NCBI RefSeq assembly: GCF_902806985.1 | Contig: NZ_CADCXY010000003.1 | Coordinates: forward strand, 62,001 to 126,000 | DNA length: 64,000 bases | Reading direction: 5' to 3' | Source: Pseudidiomarina piscicola | GTDB lineage: Bacteria; Pseudomonadota; Gammaproteobacteria; Enterobacterales; Alteromonadaceae | Shown here: in pieces, positions 4,604 through 42,960 of the stretch | Layout of the letters: every line of letters begins with the position of its first letter | Numbering within the stretch: the first letter of the stretch is position 1 | The notes under the pieces: generated by a model | What the model was told of the DNA's origin: nothing | Databases searched by the model: none | What the model saw: the letters and a program-made list of their open reading frames with translations, nothing else | Translations under genes and position numbers: made by a program

Positions 4604-5167
4604 TTATGGGGTGGTGGCGAGTGTGGGGGTGGCGGCGGTGGGGCGTTTTAGTGGTACGCCGGCGCGTGATGGTGGTGCGCAAAGGCCGCAAACGAATTGG
4701 TCGTTGAGGGAGTAGCTGAGTACCACAAAGGGTAACTGGCAGTTCGAACAAGTACAGAGTTCTAGCTGCTTGGACTCGATAAAGCGGGTTAGCATCCAGG
4801 CTCGGGTAAACGACAACACAACGCCGTCGTCTTCGTCTTCGATCATCAGTACCTGTTCGCTGTAAAGCTTGTAAGCTGAGGCCAAGGCACGTGAGTAGGT
4901 GATGTCTGGCAGGTTTTTAATTCGGTTAAAGAACGATAAAAACAAGGTGGAATGATAGTTGGGTTTCCACGTTGCGTACCAATCGGTCGAGTAGGGCAGC
5001 TGCCCTTTGGCGGGTGCTTCACCACGTACTTCTTTGTACAAACGCACCAATCGGCAACGATTAATTTCCGTGACATCTTCCAGGGTTTGCACACGGGCGC
5101 CAAGCTCGATGAGTTCAATCGCGGTTTGTACTTGCTGATATTCACTTAATAAATCAAGGCGAGACAT
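4604..5167 (-). CDS. flhC: Flagellar master regulator subunit FlhC
   Basis: FlhC joins FlhD in the D4C2 complex that activates early and middle flagellar promoters with sigma-70 polymerase. The 187 residues align with the enterobacterial protein throughout: ELGARVQTLE, RLYKEVRGEAP, LPYSTDW, TRAWMLTRF. The zinc ligands are complete: Cys140, Cys143, Cys160 and Cys163 (C-x2-C-x16-C-x2-C). The ATG at 5167 is 3 bp after the flhD stop, with GAGG inside flhD, so the two are cotranscribed. The last 20 residues are low-complexity (P/T/A) and end where the palindromic element at 4505-4603 begins. Confidence 0.93.
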   Translation of the reverse strand: MSRLDLLSEYQQVQTAIELIELGARVQTLEDVTEINRCRLVRLYKEVRGEAPAKGQLPYSTDWYATWKPNYHSTLFLSFFNRIKNLPDITYSRALASAYKLYSEQVLMIEDEDDGVVLSFTRAWMLTRFIESKQLELCTCSNCQLPFVVLSYSLNDQFVCGLCAPPSRAGVPLKRPTAATPTLATTP

Positions 5168-5170
5168 GAG

Positions 5171-5476
5171 TTAAACAGCCTCTTTATTCAAGAGTGCAAT
5201 CGAAAGATGCGCGGCTTTAGTCATTGAGTTACTGCCACGCCCGGTCGATAGCGAACGCTCAACTTCGTCGCCGGAAAGCTCGAAGGAAAACAAAAATTGG
5301 TTGCGTTTCGACAGTGCAATGATGTCTGAGGCTGACAATTTCTCGATGACGTTACATTGCTCATCGGTGATATTCATTTTCGCAATGGCGGCAAAACGAT
5401 CATCAGCGATGAGGCGTTGGGCAAGCATGAGAAATGTCATGTTTAACTCTTGGACTTCCTCAAGTAGGGACTTCAA
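5171..5476 (-). CDS. flhD: Flagellar master regulator subunit FlhD
   Basis: FlhD is the partner of FlhC. The recognisable core is LNMTFLMLAQRLI near the N-terminus, followed by helices with the family pattern (ALSKRNQFLFSFEL). The frame is open to a TTG at 5509. I prefer the TTG at 5476, which has GGAG 7 nt upstream and gives an N-terminus of nearly E. coli length (101 residues). It sits 171 bp beyond the flgN stop with an A/T-rich upstream region (5510-5647) likely holding its promoter. No Cys-box check is possible because FlhD has no metal site. Confidence 0.9.
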   Translation of the reverse strand: MKSLLEEVQELNMTFLMLAQRLIADDRFAAIAKMNITDEQCNVIEKLSASDIIALSKRNQFLFSFELSGDEVERSLSTGRGSNSMTKAAHLSIALLNKEAV

Positions 5477-5647
5477 CTGCTTTCTCCAATGACTAATTTT
5501 GTCTAACAAATGCTATTGTTATACAGATCTTAACATTGAAAAGCAAAGTAAAGATATGACATGTCTCATATATTAATAGTTATTAACAAATGGGTAGAAA
5601 GAAGGGGTTTTAAGCTGACAACAGGTTGAATTTCACTCTAAAAAACA

Positions 5648-33419: not shown

Positions 33420-34210
33420 GTAGTATAACCCCGCTTCTTGATACCTTAGTGCATCAGGTCGCTGCGCAGAAAGGCACCGTGCCTTTAAACTCTCGCGGCG
33501 CAGCACCGGTGGCGCCTATTCAAGCAGCGGGGTCAGCAACACAGTTTAGCCAAGCAGGTCAACAGCTTGCTCGGCTGGTGCAATTGGTCACAAGCTTCCA
33601 AGCTGAATTAAGTTCGCAAAGCGCGGCGCCGCGCCCCGGTGGCGTACGTGAAGCGCCGTTTTTTAGCCAGCGCGAGAGCATCCAAATTGACGCTTTAATT
33701 AAGCACCTGCACGGTAAAACTCAGCTCTCGGGCCTGTTTTACGAACATGCGCTAAAGCGTTGGACAGAATTACAGTTACCTTTCAGTAGAATTCAACAGC
33801 AGCCGCAAAATAGTGCTAGCCACCTGCGCAATGTGTTGGCCAAGCAACAACTAGAAATGGTCAGCTCTGGGTTGTTTCGCTTCGAATTTAATGTGTCCCC
33901 AGAACTGCAGTTGTTTGGTGTCGTGCAGCCCGATATTCACCCTTTAGTTCGGCGCTGGCGCGACCAACGTTCACCCAGTGGTGAGCATGAATTTGACGAC
34001 GGTTGGACCAGCGAAATAGAACTTAAAATGCAAACCTTGGGGCGCTTGCGTGCTCGTATTCGTATGCAATCGGAACGTTTGCATTTAGAGCTGCAAACCC
34101 AGGACCAGTGGCACGCCTTGCTCGAGGCAGCGGCGCCAAAGTTGCGCGAGGGTCTGTTCCAGCGGCATCAAATCACCCTTGAGTCGCTCGTGGTTCGAGG
34201 TGGATTATGA
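33416..34210 (+). CDS. FliK-like protein paired with an FlhB C-domain protein
   Basis: The protein has 264 residues and starts at a TTG that overlaps the fliT stop (TTGA). It has a low-complexity N-terminal part (Q/A/S rich), a central helical region, and a C-terminal part (about 195-260) with ELKMQTLGRLRARIRMQSER and LHLELQTQDQWHALLEAAAP, which resembles the FliK C-terminal (Flg_hook) domain. It overlaps the next gene by 4 bp. A YlqG/YlqH-like FliK-plus-FlhB-C pair is known from other bacteria. Its substrate is unknown. Confidence 0.65.
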   Translation: MSSITPLLDTLVHQVAAQKGTVPLNSRGAAPVAPIQAAGSATQFSQAGQQLARLVQLVTSFQAELSSQSAAPRPGGVREAPFFSQRESIQIDALIKHLHGKTQLSGLFYEHALKRWTELQLPFSRIQQQPQNSASHLRNVLAKQQLEMVSSGLFRFEFNVSPELQLFGVVQPDIHPLVRRWRDQRSPSGEHEFDDGWTSEIELKMQTLGRLRARIRMQSERLHLELQTQDQWHALLEAAAPKLREGLFQRHQITLESLVVRGGL

Positions 34211-34482
34211 GTGACTCAGGACCGCTTAACAAAAAAGCCGTGGCACTCAAGTATCAAGCGTTTGACCCCGCCCCCAAAGTGGTAGCGAAAGGTGACCATG
34301 AACTTGCCCAACGTATTATTGAAAAAGCCCGCGCCCATGGTGTTTTTGTGCACGAGTCAGAAGACCTAGTAATGTTGCTTGCGAAGCTTGAAGTGGGGGA
34401 CTTTGTTCCGGCCCAGTTGTGGGAAATTGTAGCGGAATTATTGGTTTGGTTGCAGTCGGTGGAAGCGACTCAAAAAGAATGA
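34207..34482 (+). CDS. FlhB C-terminal domain homologue (FhlB/YlqH-like)
   Basis: The 91 residues match only the cytoplasmic C-terminal domain of FlhB (KKAVALKYQAFDPAPKVVAK, then GVFVHESEDLVMLLAKLEVG, then LWEIVAELLVWLQ). There is no membrane part, and the autocleaving N-P-T/S-H motif is absent. Such stand-alone copies can partly substitute for the FlhB C-domain in other species. It overlaps the FliK-like gene, so the two probably act together; the full FlhB is at 36467-37609. Confidence 0.85.
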   Translation: MSDSGPLNKKAVALKYQAFDPAPKVVAKGDHELAQRIIEKARAHGVFVHESEDLVMLLAKLEVGDFVPAQLWEIVAELLVWLQSVEATQKE

Positions 34483-36466: not shown

Positions 36467-37609
36467 ATGGCCGAAGATAGCTCGAGCGATCAGGAAAAAA
36501 CCGAAGACCCCACGGCGCGACGAATACAAAAATCGCGCGATGAGGGGCAAGTTGCACGCTCTCGAGAACTGACAACCTTTGTCATGCTTCTTGGGGGTGT
36601 GGCTTTGCTGTGGCTGATGAGTTCACCTTTGTTTTATAGCTTAGGTTCGATCATGGAACAATCGTTTGTGTTCGATCGGCAACGGGTGACCGACACGGGA
36701 CCCATGTTACAAGCGGTATTGAGTTTGGGCGAGCGAGCCTTGTGGGCGATACTGCCGATGTTTGCGGTGCTACTGGTGTTGGCACTCGTGGCGCCGGCGT
36801 TGTTAGGCGGCTGGGTGATGTCGGCGAAGTCGTTACAGCCGAAATTCGAAAAACTGAACCCTATCAAAGGCGTAAAACGTATTTTTTCCACCCAGGCACT
36901 GGCGGAACTTGGCAAAGCGATTGCCAAGACGGTCTTGGTCGGTGGGGTGCTGTGCTTGTTTTTGTGGGCCGAGCGCTTTTCGTTTATGGAACTACTACGA
37001 CAGCCAGTACGTGAAGCCTTAATGGGAGCGCTGGAGCTTGCGGCGACGGCCTGCTTACTGATGGCGCTGACCTTAATAGTGGTGGCCTTATTCGACGTTC
37101 CCTTCCAATTGATGACCCACACCAAAAAACTTCGAATGACCAAAGATGAGGTCAAACGCGAGAACAAAGAAACCGACGGTGACCCACAAATCAAAGCGAA
37201 AATTCGCCAACAGCAACAAGCAATGGCCAAGCAACGCATGATGAACGATGTACCTACGGCAGACGTGATTGTCACCAACCCAAGCCATTATGCTGTGGCG
37301 CTCAAATATGACGATAGCAACATGGGCGCACCGCGGGTGGTGGCAAAAGGGGTCGAGCTGATCGCTGAAAAAATTAAGTCACTCGGCAGTGAGCACCGGG
37401 TACCCCAGCTGGAGGCGCCGCCCCTAGCTCGAGCTCTCAATAAACATGTTGATATTGGTCATGAAATTCCGGTTGAGCTTTACAGCGCCGTTGCCGAAGT
37501 TTTGGCATGGGCGTTCCAAGTCAAAAAGTTTTCCGCTGGTGAAGCGCCGCAACCGCCGCAACCAACGACGATAGACATTCCGCAAGATTATGAGGTAGCG
37601 CCGTCGTGA
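36467..37609 (+). CDS. flhB: Flagellar export switch protein FlhB
   Basis: FlhB controls the switch from hook to filament export. It has 380 residues: an acidic N-terminus (EDPTARRIQKSRDEGQVARS), four membrane helices, and a C-terminal cytoplasmic domain with the autocleavage site N271-P272-S273-H274; E. coli and most others have N-P-T-H. It heads the flhB-A-F-G'-fliA operon and overlaps flhA by 4 bp. Confidence 0.96.
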   Translation: MAEDSSSDQEKTEDPTARRIQKSRDEGQVARSRELTTFVMLLGGVALLWLMSSPLFYSLGSIMEQSFVFDRQRVTDTGPMLQAVLSLGERALWAILPMFAVLLVLALVAPALLGGWVMSAKSLQPKFEKLNPIKGVKRIFSTQALAELGKAIAKTVLVGGVLCLFLWAERFSFMELLRQPVREALMGALELAATACLLMALTLIVVALFDVPFQLMTHTKKLRMTKDEVKRENKETDGDPQIKAKIRQQQQAMAKQRMMNDVPTADVIVTNPSHYAVALKYDDSNMGAPRVVAKGVELIAEKIKSLGSEHRVPQLEAPPLARALNKHVDIGHEIPVELYSAVAEVLAWAFQVKKFSAGEAPQPPQPTTIDIPQDYEVAPS

Positions 37610-39693
37610 GTGTGGCAATGAAAGACGTAATGAATGGCATCAAACTTGACCGCATGCAGGTATTTGTCGGGCCAGTCTTGATCTTAATGATTTTGGCGAT
37701 GATGGTATTGCCGTTACCGCCGTTTATTCTCGACTTCTTATTTACCTTTAATATCGCGCTGTCGTTAATGGTGTTATTGGTCAGCATGTTTTCTCAAAAG
37801 CCGTTAGAGTTCGCAGCCTTTCCAGCGGTATTGCTGTTCTCAACCTTATTGCGCTTGTCACTCAACGTGGCGAGCACCCGCGTGGTGCTGATGGAAGGCC
37901 ACCAAGGGGGCGATGCGGCGGGGAAAGTCATCGAGGCTTTTGGTCAGTTTCTCGTTGGTGGTAACTTTGCGGTTGGCTTAGTGGTGTTTGCCATTCTCGT
38001 TATTATCAATTTCATGGTGATCACCAAGGGCGCTGGGCGAATCGCAGAAGTTGGTGCGCGCTTTACCCTTGATGCCATGCCAGGTAAACAGATGGCCATC
38101 GATGCCGACTTGAATGCCGGCTTGATTGGCGAGGAAGAAGCTCGCCTGCGGCGCCAGGAAGTAGCTCAAGAGGCCGAGTTTTATGGCTCGATGGACGGCG
38201 CCAGTAAGTTTGTACGTGGCGATGCAGTCGCGGGCATGGTGATCATGGTGGTCAATATTATTGGCGGCTTAATGATTGGCGTTATGCAACACGATATGAG
38301 TATGAGTAATGCGGCCCATACCTATGTGTTGTTAACCATCGGCGATGGCTTGGTTGCACAAATTCCGGCACTAATAATCTCCACAGCGGCAGGTGTTACG
38401 GTGTCTCGGGTGAATACCGAGCAGGACGTTGGGCAGCAGTTAATCAAGCAACTGTTTGTGAATCCGAAAGTGTTAATGCTGGCCGGTGGTGTGATTGGTC
38501 TTCTGGGCTTAGTGCCGGGCATGCCTAATTTCATCTTTTTACTTTTTACAGCCATTCTTGGTGGTTTAGCTTGGTTCCTGCAAAAGCGTCAAAAAGAGCA
38601 AGCCGCAAGCGCAGCCCAGGCGGCCGCAACCAGTGAACCTATTGAAGCTTACAGTGCCCCGGAAGCCAGTTGGCAAGACGTCAACCTAGTCGACACCTTA
38701 GGTATGGAAGTCGGCCATCGGCTGATTCCGTTGGTGGATAATAATCAACAAGGCGAGCTTCTAACCCGTATCAAAAGTGTGCGCAAGAAGTTTGCCCAAG
38801 AAGTCGGTTTCTTGCCGCCGGTGGTACATATACGCGACAACTTGGAGTTGACCCCACAGACCTATATTTTTACGCTCAAAGGCAGTGAAATAGGGCGCTC
38901 GGAAATTTACCCCGAGCAATGGCTAGCGATTAACCCAGGCGAAGTTACTAACGAAGTAGAAGGGGTGGCAACGTCGGACCCAGCCTTTGGCTTACCGGCG
39001 ATTTGGATCGCTGCGGACCAACGCGAACATGCGCAAATTTATGGCTATACCGTGGTTGACGCAAGCACTGTGGTCGCCACCCACCTAAATCACTTATTGC
39101 AACAACATTCGTCTGAGCTGTTAGGCCGTGAAGAAGTGCAAAAACTGGTCGACAAACTGGCAGAAGAAAATAAACTACTGGTCGACGATGTGGTACCGAA
39201 ATGTATTAGCTTGACCAACCTGCAGCGTATTTTGCAAAAGCTCCTCGAAGAAGACGTTTCGATTCGCGATTTACGCACCATTTTCGATAAACTTGCCGAG
39301 TTTGAAGGGCAGCAGGCCGATGTGCAGCAAATGCTAGCCGATGTGCGCGTGGCGCTGGGCCGAATGATTACCCAAAAATGGTTTGGCAGTGCCACTGAAC
39401 TCGAAGTGATAGGGCTCGATGCCAGCTTAGAGCAAATGCTGATGCAAGCACTGCAACAAAATAGCGCGATCGAACCTGGTATGGCAGCAACCATGCAGCA
39501 GCAAGCGCAAACTGCGGTACAAAATGCGATGACCATGGGGCAGCCACCGGTATTGGTTGTTCCCCATGCACTACGTGACTTAATGACGCATTTCTTGCGT
39601 CGACAAATTAATGACCTAGTGGTGATGTCGCAAGCGGAAATTCCCCATGATCGAACAATTAAAGTCGTACAAATTATTGGAGAACGTTCATGA
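37606..39693 (+). CDS. flhA: Flagellar export gate protein FlhA
   Basis: FlhA is the largest export-gate subunit, forming the nonameric ring that receives substrate-chaperone complexes. It has 695 residues: eight membrane helices, the FHIPEP-type loop (FAAFPAVLLFSTLLRLSLNV, GRIAEVGARFTLDAMPGKQM, then AIDADLNAGLI), and a soluble C-terminal domain. The start is GTG inside the flhB stop (GTGA). Its stop overlaps the flhF ATG (ATGA). Confidence 0.97.
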   Translation: MSVAMKDVMNGIKLDRMQVFVGPVLILMILAMMVLPLPPFILDFLFTFNIALSLMVLLVSMFSQKPLEFAAFPAVLLFSTLLRLSLNVASTRVVLMEGHQGGDAAGKVIEAFGQFLVGGNFAVGLVVFAILVIINFMVITKGAGRIAEVGARFTLDAMPGKQMAIDADLNAGLIGEEEARLRRQEVAQEAEFYGSMDGASKFVRGDAVAGMVIMVVNIIGGLMIGVMQHDMSMSNAAHTYVLLTIGDGLVAQIPALIISTAAGVTVSRVNTEQDVGQQLIKQLFVNPKVLMLAGGVIGLLGLVPGMPNFIFLLFTAILGGLAWFLQKRQKEQAASAAQAAATSEPIEAYSAPEASWQDVNLVDTLGMEVGHRLIPLVDNNQQGELLTRIKSVRKKFAQEVGFLPPVVHIRDNLELTPQTYIFTLKGSEIGRSEIYPEQWLAINPGEVTNEVEGVATSDPAFGLPAIWIAADQREHAQIYGYTVVDASTVVATHLNHLLQQHSSELLGREEVQKLVDKLAEENKLLVDDVVPKCISLTNLQRILQKLLEEDVSIRDLRTIFDKLAEFEGQQADVQQMLADVRVALGRMITQKWFGSATELEVIGLDASLEQMLMQALQQNSAIEPGMAATMQQQAQTAVQNAMTMGQPPVLVVPHALRDLMTHFLRRQINDLVVMSQAEIPHDRTIKVVQIIGERS

Positions 39694-41783
39694 GCTTAAA
39701 GCGGTTTCAAGCTCGTAGCCACAAAGATGCGATGCGGCAAGTTCGCGAAGCACTAGGTGCTGACGCGATCATTGTGATGTCGCGCAATAATGATGCAGGC
39801 AACGAAATTTTTGCGGTACGCGAAGAAGAACTGGATAGCCTGGCCGCACCGTCAACGGTCACCTCGCAGCCGGACGATCTTACCCGGCAATTATTGCATG
39901 ACGTGCAAGAAATGCGCCTGTTGTTACAGCAGCAGGTGGCGACCAGCGAGCCTCTTGATCAGCGCAAGTGGTGCTATCTTAAACTGCGTTCAGCGGGCTA
40001 TTCAGATACCTTAGCGCGCGAGTTGGTAGCACTACTACCGGCCCATTTAAATGCGGCAAAAGCAACCCAAGAAGAACTTCAAGCGTGGTTAACCGAGCAG
40101 CTACAAATGCGCTTAAAGGGGGCCCAGCGAGACTGGGAGTTGTTGCATCATGAAGGGGTGGTGGCGCTGGTAGGGCCAACGGGCGTTGGCAAAACCACCA
40201 CAACGGCGAAACTTGCCGCGCACTACGTGATGCAAATGGGCGCTGAGAGCCTATTGCTAGTGACCACCGATAGTTTCCGGATTGGTGCGCAACAGCAACT
40301 GGCGACCTATGCCGAGCTGCTTAATGTCGATATCTTTGCGCTGCACGATGACGCCGATTTAGCTGAACTACAAGGGAAAATGCAGAACAAGCGGTTAGTG
40401 TTGGTCGATACCGTGGGTATGAGTCAACGAGATCATCGGCTGACCCAACGTGTGGCCGCACTGGCCACACCAGAGCTAGGCGCACAGCCGCGCTTAGCGT
40501 TGTTACTCAATACCGCGGCGCAGCAAGCGACATTAAACGAAGTGGCGAGCATTTATCATGGCATCGCCAAGCAACTTAACATGCCACTTAACGATTGTAT
40601 TCTCACGAAAGTCGACGAAGCGTCTTGTGTGGGAGGCGCACTGGATACTGCCATTCGCCATCACCTGAGTGTGCAGGCGGTCTCAAGTGGTCAGCAAGTA
40701 CCAGAAGATATTTTAGCTCCCGACTTTCAAGCCTTGGTCAGTAGCTCAATGGCAGTGAGTGACGCCGCGAAAGATGCCTATGAAGACACCGATATCGACC
40801 TGCCGGAAAGCCTTTCAGCGCGCTCACAAACGGCGATTCAGCATGCTCATATGCTACGCGATTGCGTTGAAGGTTTAGCCGCAGCCTTACCAGATTTCGC
40901 GGCGGTACAACAGCAACTGCTCAACGTCAGCCGAGTCGACACGGCCGTTGCAACCTTGCCTGCGACGACCGCCTTTGCGCGTTGGGCAACGGCTAAGCCG
41001 GCCGCTAATTTTCATCATTCAACGCCGCATTTTGGTTTTTCCCAAGCCGGTCAGCTTGAATTGCAACCGCTGCTACAACAGCACGCAGCCCCTTGGTATG
41101 AGCAGACGCACTTGCGTGGCCATTTGTTTGACTTTTTACCTACGGGCGAAGAGCTGGATGCACTGAACGAACAGTCGTTGGCCTGGCTGGCGCGGGTGAA
41201 TCGTCAGCATCGCTTTTACCACCAAGGGAAAAAAGCGTCAGCGGCAGATATCCTGCGCCGTCATGGCATTAAACTAGATTCCTATAGTCGGACCTATCGC
41301 GCCGAAGTGCACCGTCTGAGCATAAGCCTTGCCGCAGTTGCCCGCGCTGAAGGTAGCGAAGAGTACCTGCAATTGGCCTGCGTGAAGCTACAGCCGAGCA
41401 GCTCAAAAAAACGTGCTGTAGAGCGCTATTTTCTGGTTTATCCGGGCTGTACTGCTGAGCAGCTCTATGACTTTATTGGCATGATGCTAAGCACCGATGA
41501 GCTTGATCGTTTAACGCGCAGCGCATGGCCGTTGGTCGAACAACACGTCGATAATGCCGATGCCAGCAGCTTGTTGTACTTAAGTGCTTTACTTGCCAGT
41601 AGTGCCGCAAGTTTGGCGCACTCAGCAGCGCCAACGGCGGCTACCCTTAGGGCGCAACTGATGGCGCTAACTCAGCGTACGGGTAAAGCCGATGCGCATA
41701 AACTTTTGCCGGCGGTGTGGCAGTGTGTGTTGGCTTATGATGCCTTTCATTTGGGGGCACGAGCACATGAGGCGCCGGCATGA
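39690..41783 (+). CDS. flhF: FlhF GTPase with a long C-terminal extension
   Basis: FlhF is an SRP-family GTPase that sets flagellum number and site in polar flagellates. It is unusually long at 697 residues (commonly about 380-500). The N-terminal B region starts SLKRFQARSHKDAMRQVREA. The NG domain covers about 150-350 with G1 at G162-T170 (GPTGVGKTT), TTDSFRIGA (192-200), DTVG (240-243) and TKVDE (306-310), all intact. Residues 351-697 are an extension with no motif I recognise. It overlaps flhA and the reduced flhG by 4 bp each. Confidence 0.93.
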   Translation: MSLKRFQARSHKDAMRQVREALGADAIIVMSRNNDAGNEIFAVREEELDSLAAPSTVTSQPDDLTRQLLHDVQEMRLLLQQQVATSEPLDQRKWCYLKLRSAGYSDTLARELVALLPAHLNAAKATQEELQAWLTEQLQMRLKGAQRDWELLHHEGVVALVGPTGVGKTTTTAKLAAHYVMQMGAESLLLVTTDSFRIGAQQQLATYAELLNVDIFALHDDADLAELQGKMQNKRLVLVDTVGMSQRDHRLTQRVAALATPELGAQPRLALLLNTAAQQATLNEVASIYHGIAKQLNMPLNDCILTKVDEASCVGGALDTAIRHHLSVQAVSSGQQVPEDILAPDFQALVSSSMAVSDAAKDAYEDTDIDLPESLSARSQTAIQHAHMLRDCVEGLAAALPDFAAVQQQLLNVSRVDTAVATLPATTAFARWATAKPAANFHHSTPHFGFSQAGQLELQPLLQQHAAPWYEQTHLRGHLFDFLPTGEELDALNEQSLAWLARVNRQHRFYHQGKKASAADILRRHGIKLDSYSRTYRAEVHRLSISLAAVARAEGSEEYLQLACVKLQPSSSKKRAVERYFLVYPGCTAEQLYDFIGMMLSTDELDRLTRSAWPLVEQHVDNADASSLLYLSALLASSAASLAHSAAPTAATLRAQLMALTQRTGKADAHKLLPAVWQCVLAYDAFHLGARAHEAPA

Positions 41784-42256
41784 GCGATCAAGCGGCAAGC
41801 TTACGCGCTTGGGCGGCATCGCAAGAGCGCGATAAGGCACCCGAAGCAGCGCCGACAGCGCCCTCGTGCAAGCAGCAACTGGTGGTGATCGGCTTGCCGT
41901 CACCCACCTATGACGAGTGCCAACGGTTATGTGCACCGGTGTTGCAACGCTGGCAAGCCAATGGCCGGCGTTGGGTTGGTGATGCTGCGGAATGGGGCTT
42001 CATTGCGGCGAGCCTAGAAGGCCATGATTGGTCTGAACTCGCCAGTGAGCATGCGCGATGGGCGCTGTGGATAGACAACGATATGCAAAGTTTTCGTCGT
42101 GCCTATAGCCATCTTAAGCATCTGGCTAAAACTCAGAAAGTTCAGCAGATCATTGCGCTGCACCCACCGATGCAGTCGCGCCGTGGGCTGTTGAGTAATT
42201 TGCAAAGTGCAGCGAAACAGTTTTTGGGTATTCAATTGTTGGTCTTTGCGGAGTAA
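41780..42256 (+). CDS. Reduced FlhG-like protein lacking the ATPase core
   Basis: The protein has 158 residues in the flhG slot between flhF and fliA. Residues 3-9 are DQAASLR, the DQAxxLR helix by which FlhG proteins stimulate the FlhF GTPase. The C-terminal part (RAYSHLKHLAKTQKVQQIIA, then an S-R-R-G-L-L segment and AAKQFLGIQLLVF) follows the pattern of the end of FlhG. There is no KGGxGKT Walker A or other MinD motif. Usual FlhG is about 270-300 residues. It looks like a remodelled FlhG kept as an FlhF regulator. The frame is intact, so it is not an obvious pseudogene. Confidence 0.7.
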   Translation: MSDQAASLRAWAASQERDKAPEAAPTAPSCKQQLVVIGLPSPTYDECQRLCAPVLQRWQANGRRWVGDAAEWGFIAASLEGHDWSELASEHARWALWIDNDMQSFRRAYSHLKHLAKTQKVQQIIALHPPMQSRRGLLSNLQSAAKQFLGIQLLVFAE

Positions 42257-42261
42257 CTGCT

Positions 42262-42960
42262 ATGTACACTGCAGATGGAAGAATTTCTAAACAACAACTG
42301 GTTGAGCAGTATTATCCGTTGGTGCGAAAGACCGCGCTTAAGTTAAAGGTTCGTGTTCCTGAAAGCATAGAGCTAGACGACTTGATACAGTCTGGAATGA
42401 TTGGCCTGTTGAGCAGTTTTGAGCGCTATGATGCCTCAGCCGGCGTCGCATTTTCGAGTTTTGCCCACGCGCGGATTCAAGGTGCGATGATCGATGAGCT
42501 GCGCACGCGCGATTGGTTGCCACGACGTGTGCGTCGCTCCAGTCGTGAACTTGAGGCGTGCATTAGAGACTTAGAACAAAAGCTTGGGCGCGCGCCCGAG
42601 GATCAAGAAATAGCCACGGCGATGGACCTTGATCTAGAAACCTATCGAAAATTACTGGGTGATACCAATGCCGGTTTAGTGCTGTCGCTGGATGAGGTCG
42701 CCAGCGATATCGATAGTATTTCGGAAACCCTACAAGGAGCTTTTGAGACCCCCGCCGAAGCCTTTGATCAAACCCAGCTACGTGAGAACTTAGTCGCGGC
42801 CATTCAAAGCCTGCCTGAACGCGAGATGCTGGCACTTACGCTGTATTACCAAGAGGGCCTGAACCTTAAGGAAATCGCCAAAGTGCTTGAGGTTTCCGAG
42901 TCGCGCGTTTCGCAACTTCATAGCCAGGCAATTAAGCGTATTCAAAGTAAAGTACGATAA
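42262..42960 (+). CDS. fliA: Flagellar sigma factor FliA (sigma-28)
   Basis: FliA directs polymerase to late flagellar promoters. It has 232 residues: region 2 (DDLIQSGMIGLLSSFERYDA, then FSSFAHARIQGAMIDELRTR and DWLPRR), region 3, and region 4 (LPEREMLALTLYYQEGLNLK, then EIAKVLEVSESRVSQLHSQA). GGAG lies 8-9 nt before the ATG. Six matching promoters are found in this window. It is the last gene of the flh operon. Confidence 0.97.
   Translation: MYTADGRISKQQLVEQYYPLVRKTALKLKVRVPESIELDDLIQSGMIGLLSSFERYDASAGVAFSSFAHARIQGAMIDELRTRDWLPRRVRRSSRELEACIRDLEQKLGRAPEDQEIATAMDLDLETYRKLLGDTNAGLVLSLDEVASDIDSISETLQGAFETPAEAFDQTQLRENLVAAIQSLPEREMLALTLYYQEGLNLKEIAKVLEVSESRVSQLHSQAIKRIQSKVR

Follow-up and report, generated by a model that had tools for sequence, protein, structure and literature searches.

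The short flhG gene of the window

The stretch of DNA considered here (the window) comprises 64,000 nucleotides of Pseudidiomarina piscicola, contig NZ_CADCXY010000003.1, positions 62,001 to 126,000. Near its 40 kb point, within a large flagellar cluster, lie flhA, flhF, a shortened flhG (mini-flhG) and fliA, in that order. FlhF and FlhG form a known switch for the number and place of flagella, FlhG normally acting as an ATP-driven switch for flagellum number. The product of the short gene, mini-FlhG, is a conserved FlhG-derived pseudo-ATPase and not a local oddity. Its features, and its downstream neighbor, are the following.

41780-42256, plus strand: mini-FlhG, FlhG-derived pseudo-ATPase of 158 residues (profile, model, conservation, dN/dS)
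41786-41806, plus strand: DQAASLR, residues 3-9, motif of the FlhF-activating (enhancer) helix (motif conservation; role from PMC12826062)
41873-41908, plus strand: residues 32-43, beta1 and the following loop at the place of the FlhG P-loop, with Walker A lost (model, placed by eye)
42059-42244, plus strand: residues 94-155, apparent remnant of the MinD fold, from its C-terminal part (hhalign to the FlhG family)
42262-42960, plus strand: fliA (sigma-28), downstream neighbor of the short flhG

The mini-flhG ATG overlaps the flhF stop codon by 4 nt (ATGA). The original prediction, made from the window's letters, was that the gene between flhF and fliA is an flhG encoding 158 residues with DQAASLR at residues 3-9; the open reading frame (ORF) confirms the latter, and the syntenic place, the DQAxxLR motif and a profile match over residues 94-154 bear out the derivation from flhG. 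The accompanying statement that the protein has no ATPase core holds for the P-loop, which is absent, and needs correcting for the remainder: model and profile indicate that the MinD core is reduced and eroded, not simply absent, and "pseudo-ATPase remnant" is the better term.

No full FlhG was found elsewhere in the same genome (2.51 Mb, 99.96% complete), in which a canonical FlhG query gave no match at E<=1e-20. The ParA/MinD-type matches listed there are a 354-residue Mrp-type frame, a 742-residue frame that we take to be kinase-like, an FtsY-like frame and, identified by eye, a BcsQ-like ORF and a Soj/ParA next to gidB and parB. Nothing MinD-like is among these ParA-type matches, although no search was aimed at MinD; MinD may be lacking.

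Conservation and descent from FlhG

A profile-guided scan located mini-flhG at 69 named loci. The alignment of the window protein with 62 of these (A3; 7 near-duplicates were dropped by eye) has 63 rows that are 28-46% identical to the window protein. DQAxxLR is present in all 63, as it is in 69/69 locus frames, which rules out its chance occurrence; the Walker A pattern GxxxxGK[ST] is present in 0/63. W11, W58, W65, W72, W94 and W97, all outside the enhancer motif, are invariant or nearly so, and the proteins range from 131 to 219 residues with the starts chosen. Ratios of nonsynonymous to synonymous substitution (NG86 dN/dS) of 0.034-0.180 in five close pairs denote purifying selection, and on these low values and the breadth of occurrence a decaying gene was rejected. 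The view that an intact frame argues against simple decay is thus upheld; that of a stripped-down FlhG under selection is supported by frame, synteny, conservation and dN/dS, with the stimulation of FlhF that it presumes still to be read as a prediction from sequence.

As a single sequence mini-FlhG has no match in Pfam, NCBIfam or the PDB sequences; a Pfam scan of the 63 rows gives scattered weak matches only, and a PDB sequence search with the A3 profile gives nothing credible (best E 0.19), so that no confident unrelated family has emerged. In a trimmed-column hhalign comparison with a profile of 31 canonical and 2 betaproteobacterial FlhGs, residues 94-154 of mini-FlhG align with FlhG positions 151-214 at P 8e-4, the best of 40 shuffled controls reaching 0.058. 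(The untrimmed comparison, at ~1e-22, was discarded as an artefact since shuffled controls gave equal values.) Mini-FlhG ends at about position 217 of the 281-position FlhG profile, where FlhG has ~64 residues more; because these hold the membrane-targeting sequence that a 2025 review places at the FlhG C-terminus (PMC12826062), that part is lost. The AlphaFold2 (AF2) model of mini-FlhG (pLDDT 86) is an alpha/beta unit with beta1-loop-alpha1 where the P-loop would be and no helix beyond E152-155, that is, with the C-terminal membrane-targeting helix missing. FleN/FlhG chains make up 6 of the first 14 Foldseek rows for this model, at E 5e-3 and above; they stand behind and among unrelated folds, and in a second comparison are tied with Ras-like folds.

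Distribution

Among 26 Pseudidiomarina genomes, 16 have flhF and fliA above cut-off. The flhF-fliA interval of 15 of these 16, the window's own genome included, holds mini-flhG (the other 14 at 44-49% identity), flanked by an flhF frame of 678-725 residues and by fliA. The sixteenth (G129, L086) has a 456-residue FlhF frame, a canonical FlhG and FleQ; its FlhA groups in the canonical clade, and its flagellar cluster has therefore probably been exchanged within the genus. In the 10 genomes without flhF and fliA above cut-off, 7 of them at least 90% complete, flagella have apparently been lost.

Beyond the genus, mini-flhG is carried by a genome of a second genus (G010), and the 69 named loci spread over five families, Idiomarinaceae, Halomonadaceae, Alcanivoracaceae, Halieaceae and Pseudomonadaceae, a group of marine and salt-loving bacteria. 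Besides Pseudidiomarina they include Aliidiomarina, a strain labelled Idiomarina loihiensis, Halomonas, Billgrantia, Vreelandella, Franzmannia, Litchfieldella, Alloalcanivorax, Mangrovimicrobium, four Pseudomonas and Salinicola peritrichatus (the last a weak match at 27%, E 1e-3). A long FlhF is present at 68/69 of these loci, the remaining one (L165) being at a contig end, and fliA lies inside the locus at 67/69, with the gap between mini-flhG and fliA reaching 0.5-1.1 kb in some relatives. In an order-level sample mini-flhG was matched in 2/394 genomes (the window's own and G010); in the window's own taxonomic family, 105/118 genomes have a canonical FlhG match at E<=1e-20 (69-83% identity), and G105 adds a weak one at 29%. 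In a class sample of 369 genomes the C-terminal domain of the long FlhF was found in three, the window's own (G000), G863 and G771, each with a short DQAxxLR gene after flhF. That of G771, missed by tblastn and recovered by reading the DNA 3' of flhF, is divergent (DQASGLR), has no P-loop and follows flhF immediately; fliA is not directly next.

Flagellar lineage and graded erosion of FlhG

The lineage of the system was followed through a neighboring flagellar gene:

37606-39693, plus strand: flhA, marker for flagellar lineage (identity and tree comparisons)

The window FlhA is 67-87% identical to that of short-FlhG clusters, Halomonas and Pseudomonas included, and only 50-54% identical to that of 13 canonical clusters of its own family. 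In a tree of 67 FlhA rows the 17 from short-FlhG systems form a single clade (support 100), with E. coli as its sister (SH-aLRT 97, a quick method with no bootstrap) and Cupriavidus and Burkholderia next outwards (99), L295 and L296 placing with other Cupriavidus; the 42 canonical rows stand apart. An FlhB tree agrees on the larger grouping (87/97) and leaves the position of E. coli unresolved. As judged from these two trees, the short-FlhG systems belong with betaproteobacterial and enteric flagella.

In this part of the FlhA tree FlhG is found in several conditions. L286 has an intact GKGGVGKT and L267 a deviant GSAKGVGKT that keeps the lysine, while in three Cupriavidus and in Burkholderia glumae the P-loop lysine is lost at full length; Cupriavidus combines such a full-length, P-loop-less FlhG with a long FlhF. 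L283 (G608) encodes a 250-residue FlhG with DQAAGLR and no P-loop beside a 525-residue FlhF frame; it lies on a long FlhA branch outside the betaproteobacterial-short group, so that its P-loop loss is perhaps a separate event. In E. coli no flhF or flhG is listed in the 30 kb around flhA, in agreement with the review, according to which it has neither gene (PMC12826062). The short-FlhG state looks like an intermediate toward the enteric loss of both.

The P-loop is otherwise well kept. A class survey of 40 loci, drawn from FlhF matches listed to E ~2e-67 and hence not random (low-scoring, perhaps long, FlhFs fall outside it), has GKGG[VI]GK[ST] in 37 of 39 readable FlhGs among the matches listed. 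When four betaproteobacterial plasmids were added, a motif search found FlhG at 28 of the 44 loci; on re-reading the other 16, 15 proved to have GKGGVGK[ST], and the last (L293) runs off the fetched stretch. By eye, and among the matches listed, the P-loop is kept and DQAxxLR lost or altered at L271, L272, L280-L282, L284, L285, L287-L289 and L294; the two halves of FlhG therefore seem separable both ways. Elsewhere in the window, a 91-residue ORF at 34207-34482 presumably resembles the C-terminal domain of FlhB.

FlhDC in place of FleQ/FlrA

The window also carries the flagellar master regulator:

4604-5167, minus strand: flhC, master regulator subunit (PF05280, 207 bits)
5171-5509, minus strand: flhD, master regulator subunit (PF05247, 66 bits)

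Thirty-three genomes were compared for their regulators: 16 with short FlhG, 10 with canonical FlhG and 7 flagella-less congeners. FlhC is present at E<=4e-61 in 16/16 of the first set, of which 0/16 have a strong FleQ (best scores 27.5 bits in G118 and 20.7 bits in G126). In the canonical set, FleQ is present at 65 bits or more in 10/10 and a strong FlhC in 0/10 (G059 has a 56-bit orphan and G055 a sub-cut-off match); the 7 flagella-less congeners have neither. Of the more distant carriers, G863 has an FlhC match at the border of the fetched DNA, ~19 kb upstream, and G771 has none within the about 35 kb examined. In the genomes tested, short FlhG goes with FlhDC rather than with FleQ/FlrA control, and the reduction is common to a distinct FlhDC-linked flagellar lineage.

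A narrower link, to peritrichous flagellation only, was rejected on the strength of flagellation reports. Members of the genus are described as either non-motile, peritrichous or equipped with one polar flagellum (PMC6193092), and P. piscicola as having a polar flagellum (PMC8055624); in P. fluorescens F113 the second flagellum, which FlhDC drives, is a polar tuft (PMC5031763), and flhF, flhG and fleN go unmentioned in that paper.

Three observations concern flhDC itself. The window's copy lies ~35 kb from flhF on the opposite strand; by coordinates, the congeners checked have flhC ~5 kb upstream of flhF. At 207 bits, the window's FlhC scores below the 254-270 bits seen in congeners. An orphan FlhC-like gene (a 202-residue frame, 56 bits) occurs in G059 (L231) and G122 (L233), remote from the flagellar cluster; in G122 it is a second FlhC copy.

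The long FlhF and its transposase-like domain

39690-41783, plus strand: flhF, 697 residues, NG part with GTPase motifs and a long C-terminal extension (TIGR03499, motifs)
40713-41780, plus strand: FlhF residues 342-697, C-terminal part with a Tn5/IS4 transposase fold (structure and profile match)

The window FlhF scores 204.3 bits with TIGR03499 (cut-off 174.15) and has the GTPase motifs GPTGVGKT (G1), DTVG (G3) and TKVD (G4); at the named loci G1 is present in 65/68 and G3 in 68/68. The C-terminal domain of FlhF in short-FlhG systems spans ~280-400 residues and matches Tn5/IS4 transposase both in fold, by structure comparison, and in sequence profile. An hhalign comparison of the extension alignment (A4) with transposases (A5) gives E 9e-6 (1.3e-4 and 1.9e-4 with other column choices), the best of 30 column-shuffled controls reaching 0.30. 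The A5 transposases were collected through a query that the A4 profile had found, which makes this comparison not fully independent of that search; the structure match is independent of both profile searches. A Pfam scan of A4 members gives scattered weak matches, none credible, and nothing credible came from searching the PDB sequences with the A4 profile (best E 0.73).

As to the DDE catalytic triad, no well-filled column between domain residues 67 and 261 is 70% acidic or more; the Glu column is acidic in 49/54 extension rows, and hhalign gave no placement for the two Asp columns. The domain is apparently catalytically dead, and a partner-binding or localizing role is more likely than DNA cleavage. 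Searches of an open-access library listed no description of a short FlhG or of a transposase-like domain in FlhF.

A probable ATP-independent cofactor of FlhF, and alternatives

As set out in the review (PMC12826062), two outputs of FlhG are tied to its ATP-dependent dimerisation and membrane binding: the glutamine of DQAxxLR stimulates GTP hydrolysis by FlhF, and FlrA/FleQ is restrained. The reading that we favor, with a probability of about three in four, is that in mini-FlhG an FlhG has turned into a cofactor of FlhF that works independently of ATP. The enhancer helix of mini-FlhG would still contribute the glutamine through which the FlhF homodimer is stimulated to hydrolyze GTP; with ATP-gated dimerisation and membrane cycling gone, stimulation would be constitutive, and mini-FlhG would be an unregulated, stoichiometric FlhF activator. 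The restraint of FleQ/FlrA, exercised through the MinD body, would have no target left where FlhDC is the master regulator, which would explain how the ATPase came to be dispensable. What remains of the MinD fold would probably have been retained as a scaffold or as a surface for binding a partner, which may be the new FlhF domain.

Less probably, though deserving of some weight, mini-FlhG chiefly serves as a partner to the Tn5-like FlhF domain, with the co-evolved pair replacing the ATP-driven FlhG cycle (in dimerisation, localisation or DNA contact) and GTPase stimulation being secondary. Short FlhG and long FlhF do occur together at every locus readable for both (68/68 named loci, the 15 genus loci, and G010, G863 and G771), and the six (near-)invariant tryptophans are what a conserved interaction face would retain; the long FlhF of Cupriavidus is nevertheless paired with a full-length, P-loop-less FlhG, so that the FlhF domain does not need the short form.

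That mini-FlhG is being lost, as a remnant in slow decay that operon structure preserves for a while before a loss like that in enterics, would suit the FlhA grouping of E. coli (devoid of both genes) with this lineage and the earlier erosion seen in betaproteobacterial FlhGs; it is largely refuted, and very improbable, in view of the low dN/dS in five pairs, a motif invariant across rows as divergent as 28-46% identity, and open frames across five bacterial families. It is just as improbable that a MinD-unrelated protein replaced FlhG and acquired the DQAxxLR helix: the lack of family matches for single sequences, the scattered weak Pfam matches of the 63 rows and the undiscriminating fold comparison, which favors FlhG no more than other Rossmann-like folds, leave room for this, and against it stand the profile match beyond shuffled controls, the FleN/FlhG chains among the first Foldseek rows, the shared locus and the P-loop-damaged FlhGs elsewhere in the lineage.

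The cofactor reading can be extended, tentatively and at somewhat less than even odds, to the lineage as a whole. In the beta/enteric-type lineage, control of flagellum number would have moved off the FlhG ATPase (from ATPase to pseudo-ATPase to FlhF-activating stub) and FlhF would have taken in a dead Tn5-type transposase to serve as a new regulatory domain; Idiomarinaceae and Halomonadaceae would keep the step before the enteric loss of both genes, so that flhF and flhG would have traveled with the operon and been lost later.

Two questions of the review (PMC12826062, sections 5, 6, 8 and 12) become testable in the short-FlhG lineage: whether FlhG works with master regulators besides FleQ/FlrA, which it leaves open, and whether flhF/flhG were never transferred to enterics or were lost soon after, the two courses that it allows. 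The lineage separates FlhF activation from the ATPase and ties the presence of the ATPase to FleQ/FlrA, and the closest FlhA relatives of E. coli in the sample retain flhF-flhG. For a signal recognition particle (SRP)-type GTPase to have acquired a transposase-like domain would be domain capture of a new kind in the control of flagella.

Comparison with known systems

The FlhF domain differs from Tn5/IS4 transposase in having no conserved catalytic-triad aspartates and in being joined to an SRP-type GTPase. Closest to the long FlhF is PRK14723 (NF011312, a 768-position model), whose C-terminal part matches the window FlhF extension (E 1e-5) and which matches 26/54 extension rows (best E 9.7e-12); the window FlhF reaches 328 bits against a cut-off of 951, and the entry makes no mention of a transposase fold. 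With FlhG/FleN/YlxH, the MinD-like ATPase (PDB 4rz2, 4rz3, 5jvf, 5j1j), mini-FlhG shares the place downstream of flhF, the DQAxxLR helix and an apparent remnant of the fold. It differs in size (158 against ~280-300 residues), in lacking Walker A and the C-terminal membrane-targeting helix, and in going with FlhDC instead of FleQ/FlrA. Also close are the betaproteobacterial FlhGs of three Cupriavidus and of Burkholderia glumae pBGF2, which resemble mini-FlhG in their DQAEGLR/DQAESLR helix, in the lost P-loop lysine and in belonging to the same flagellar lineage by FlhA, but which, at 264-268 residues counted from the DQA motif, are still of approximately full length.
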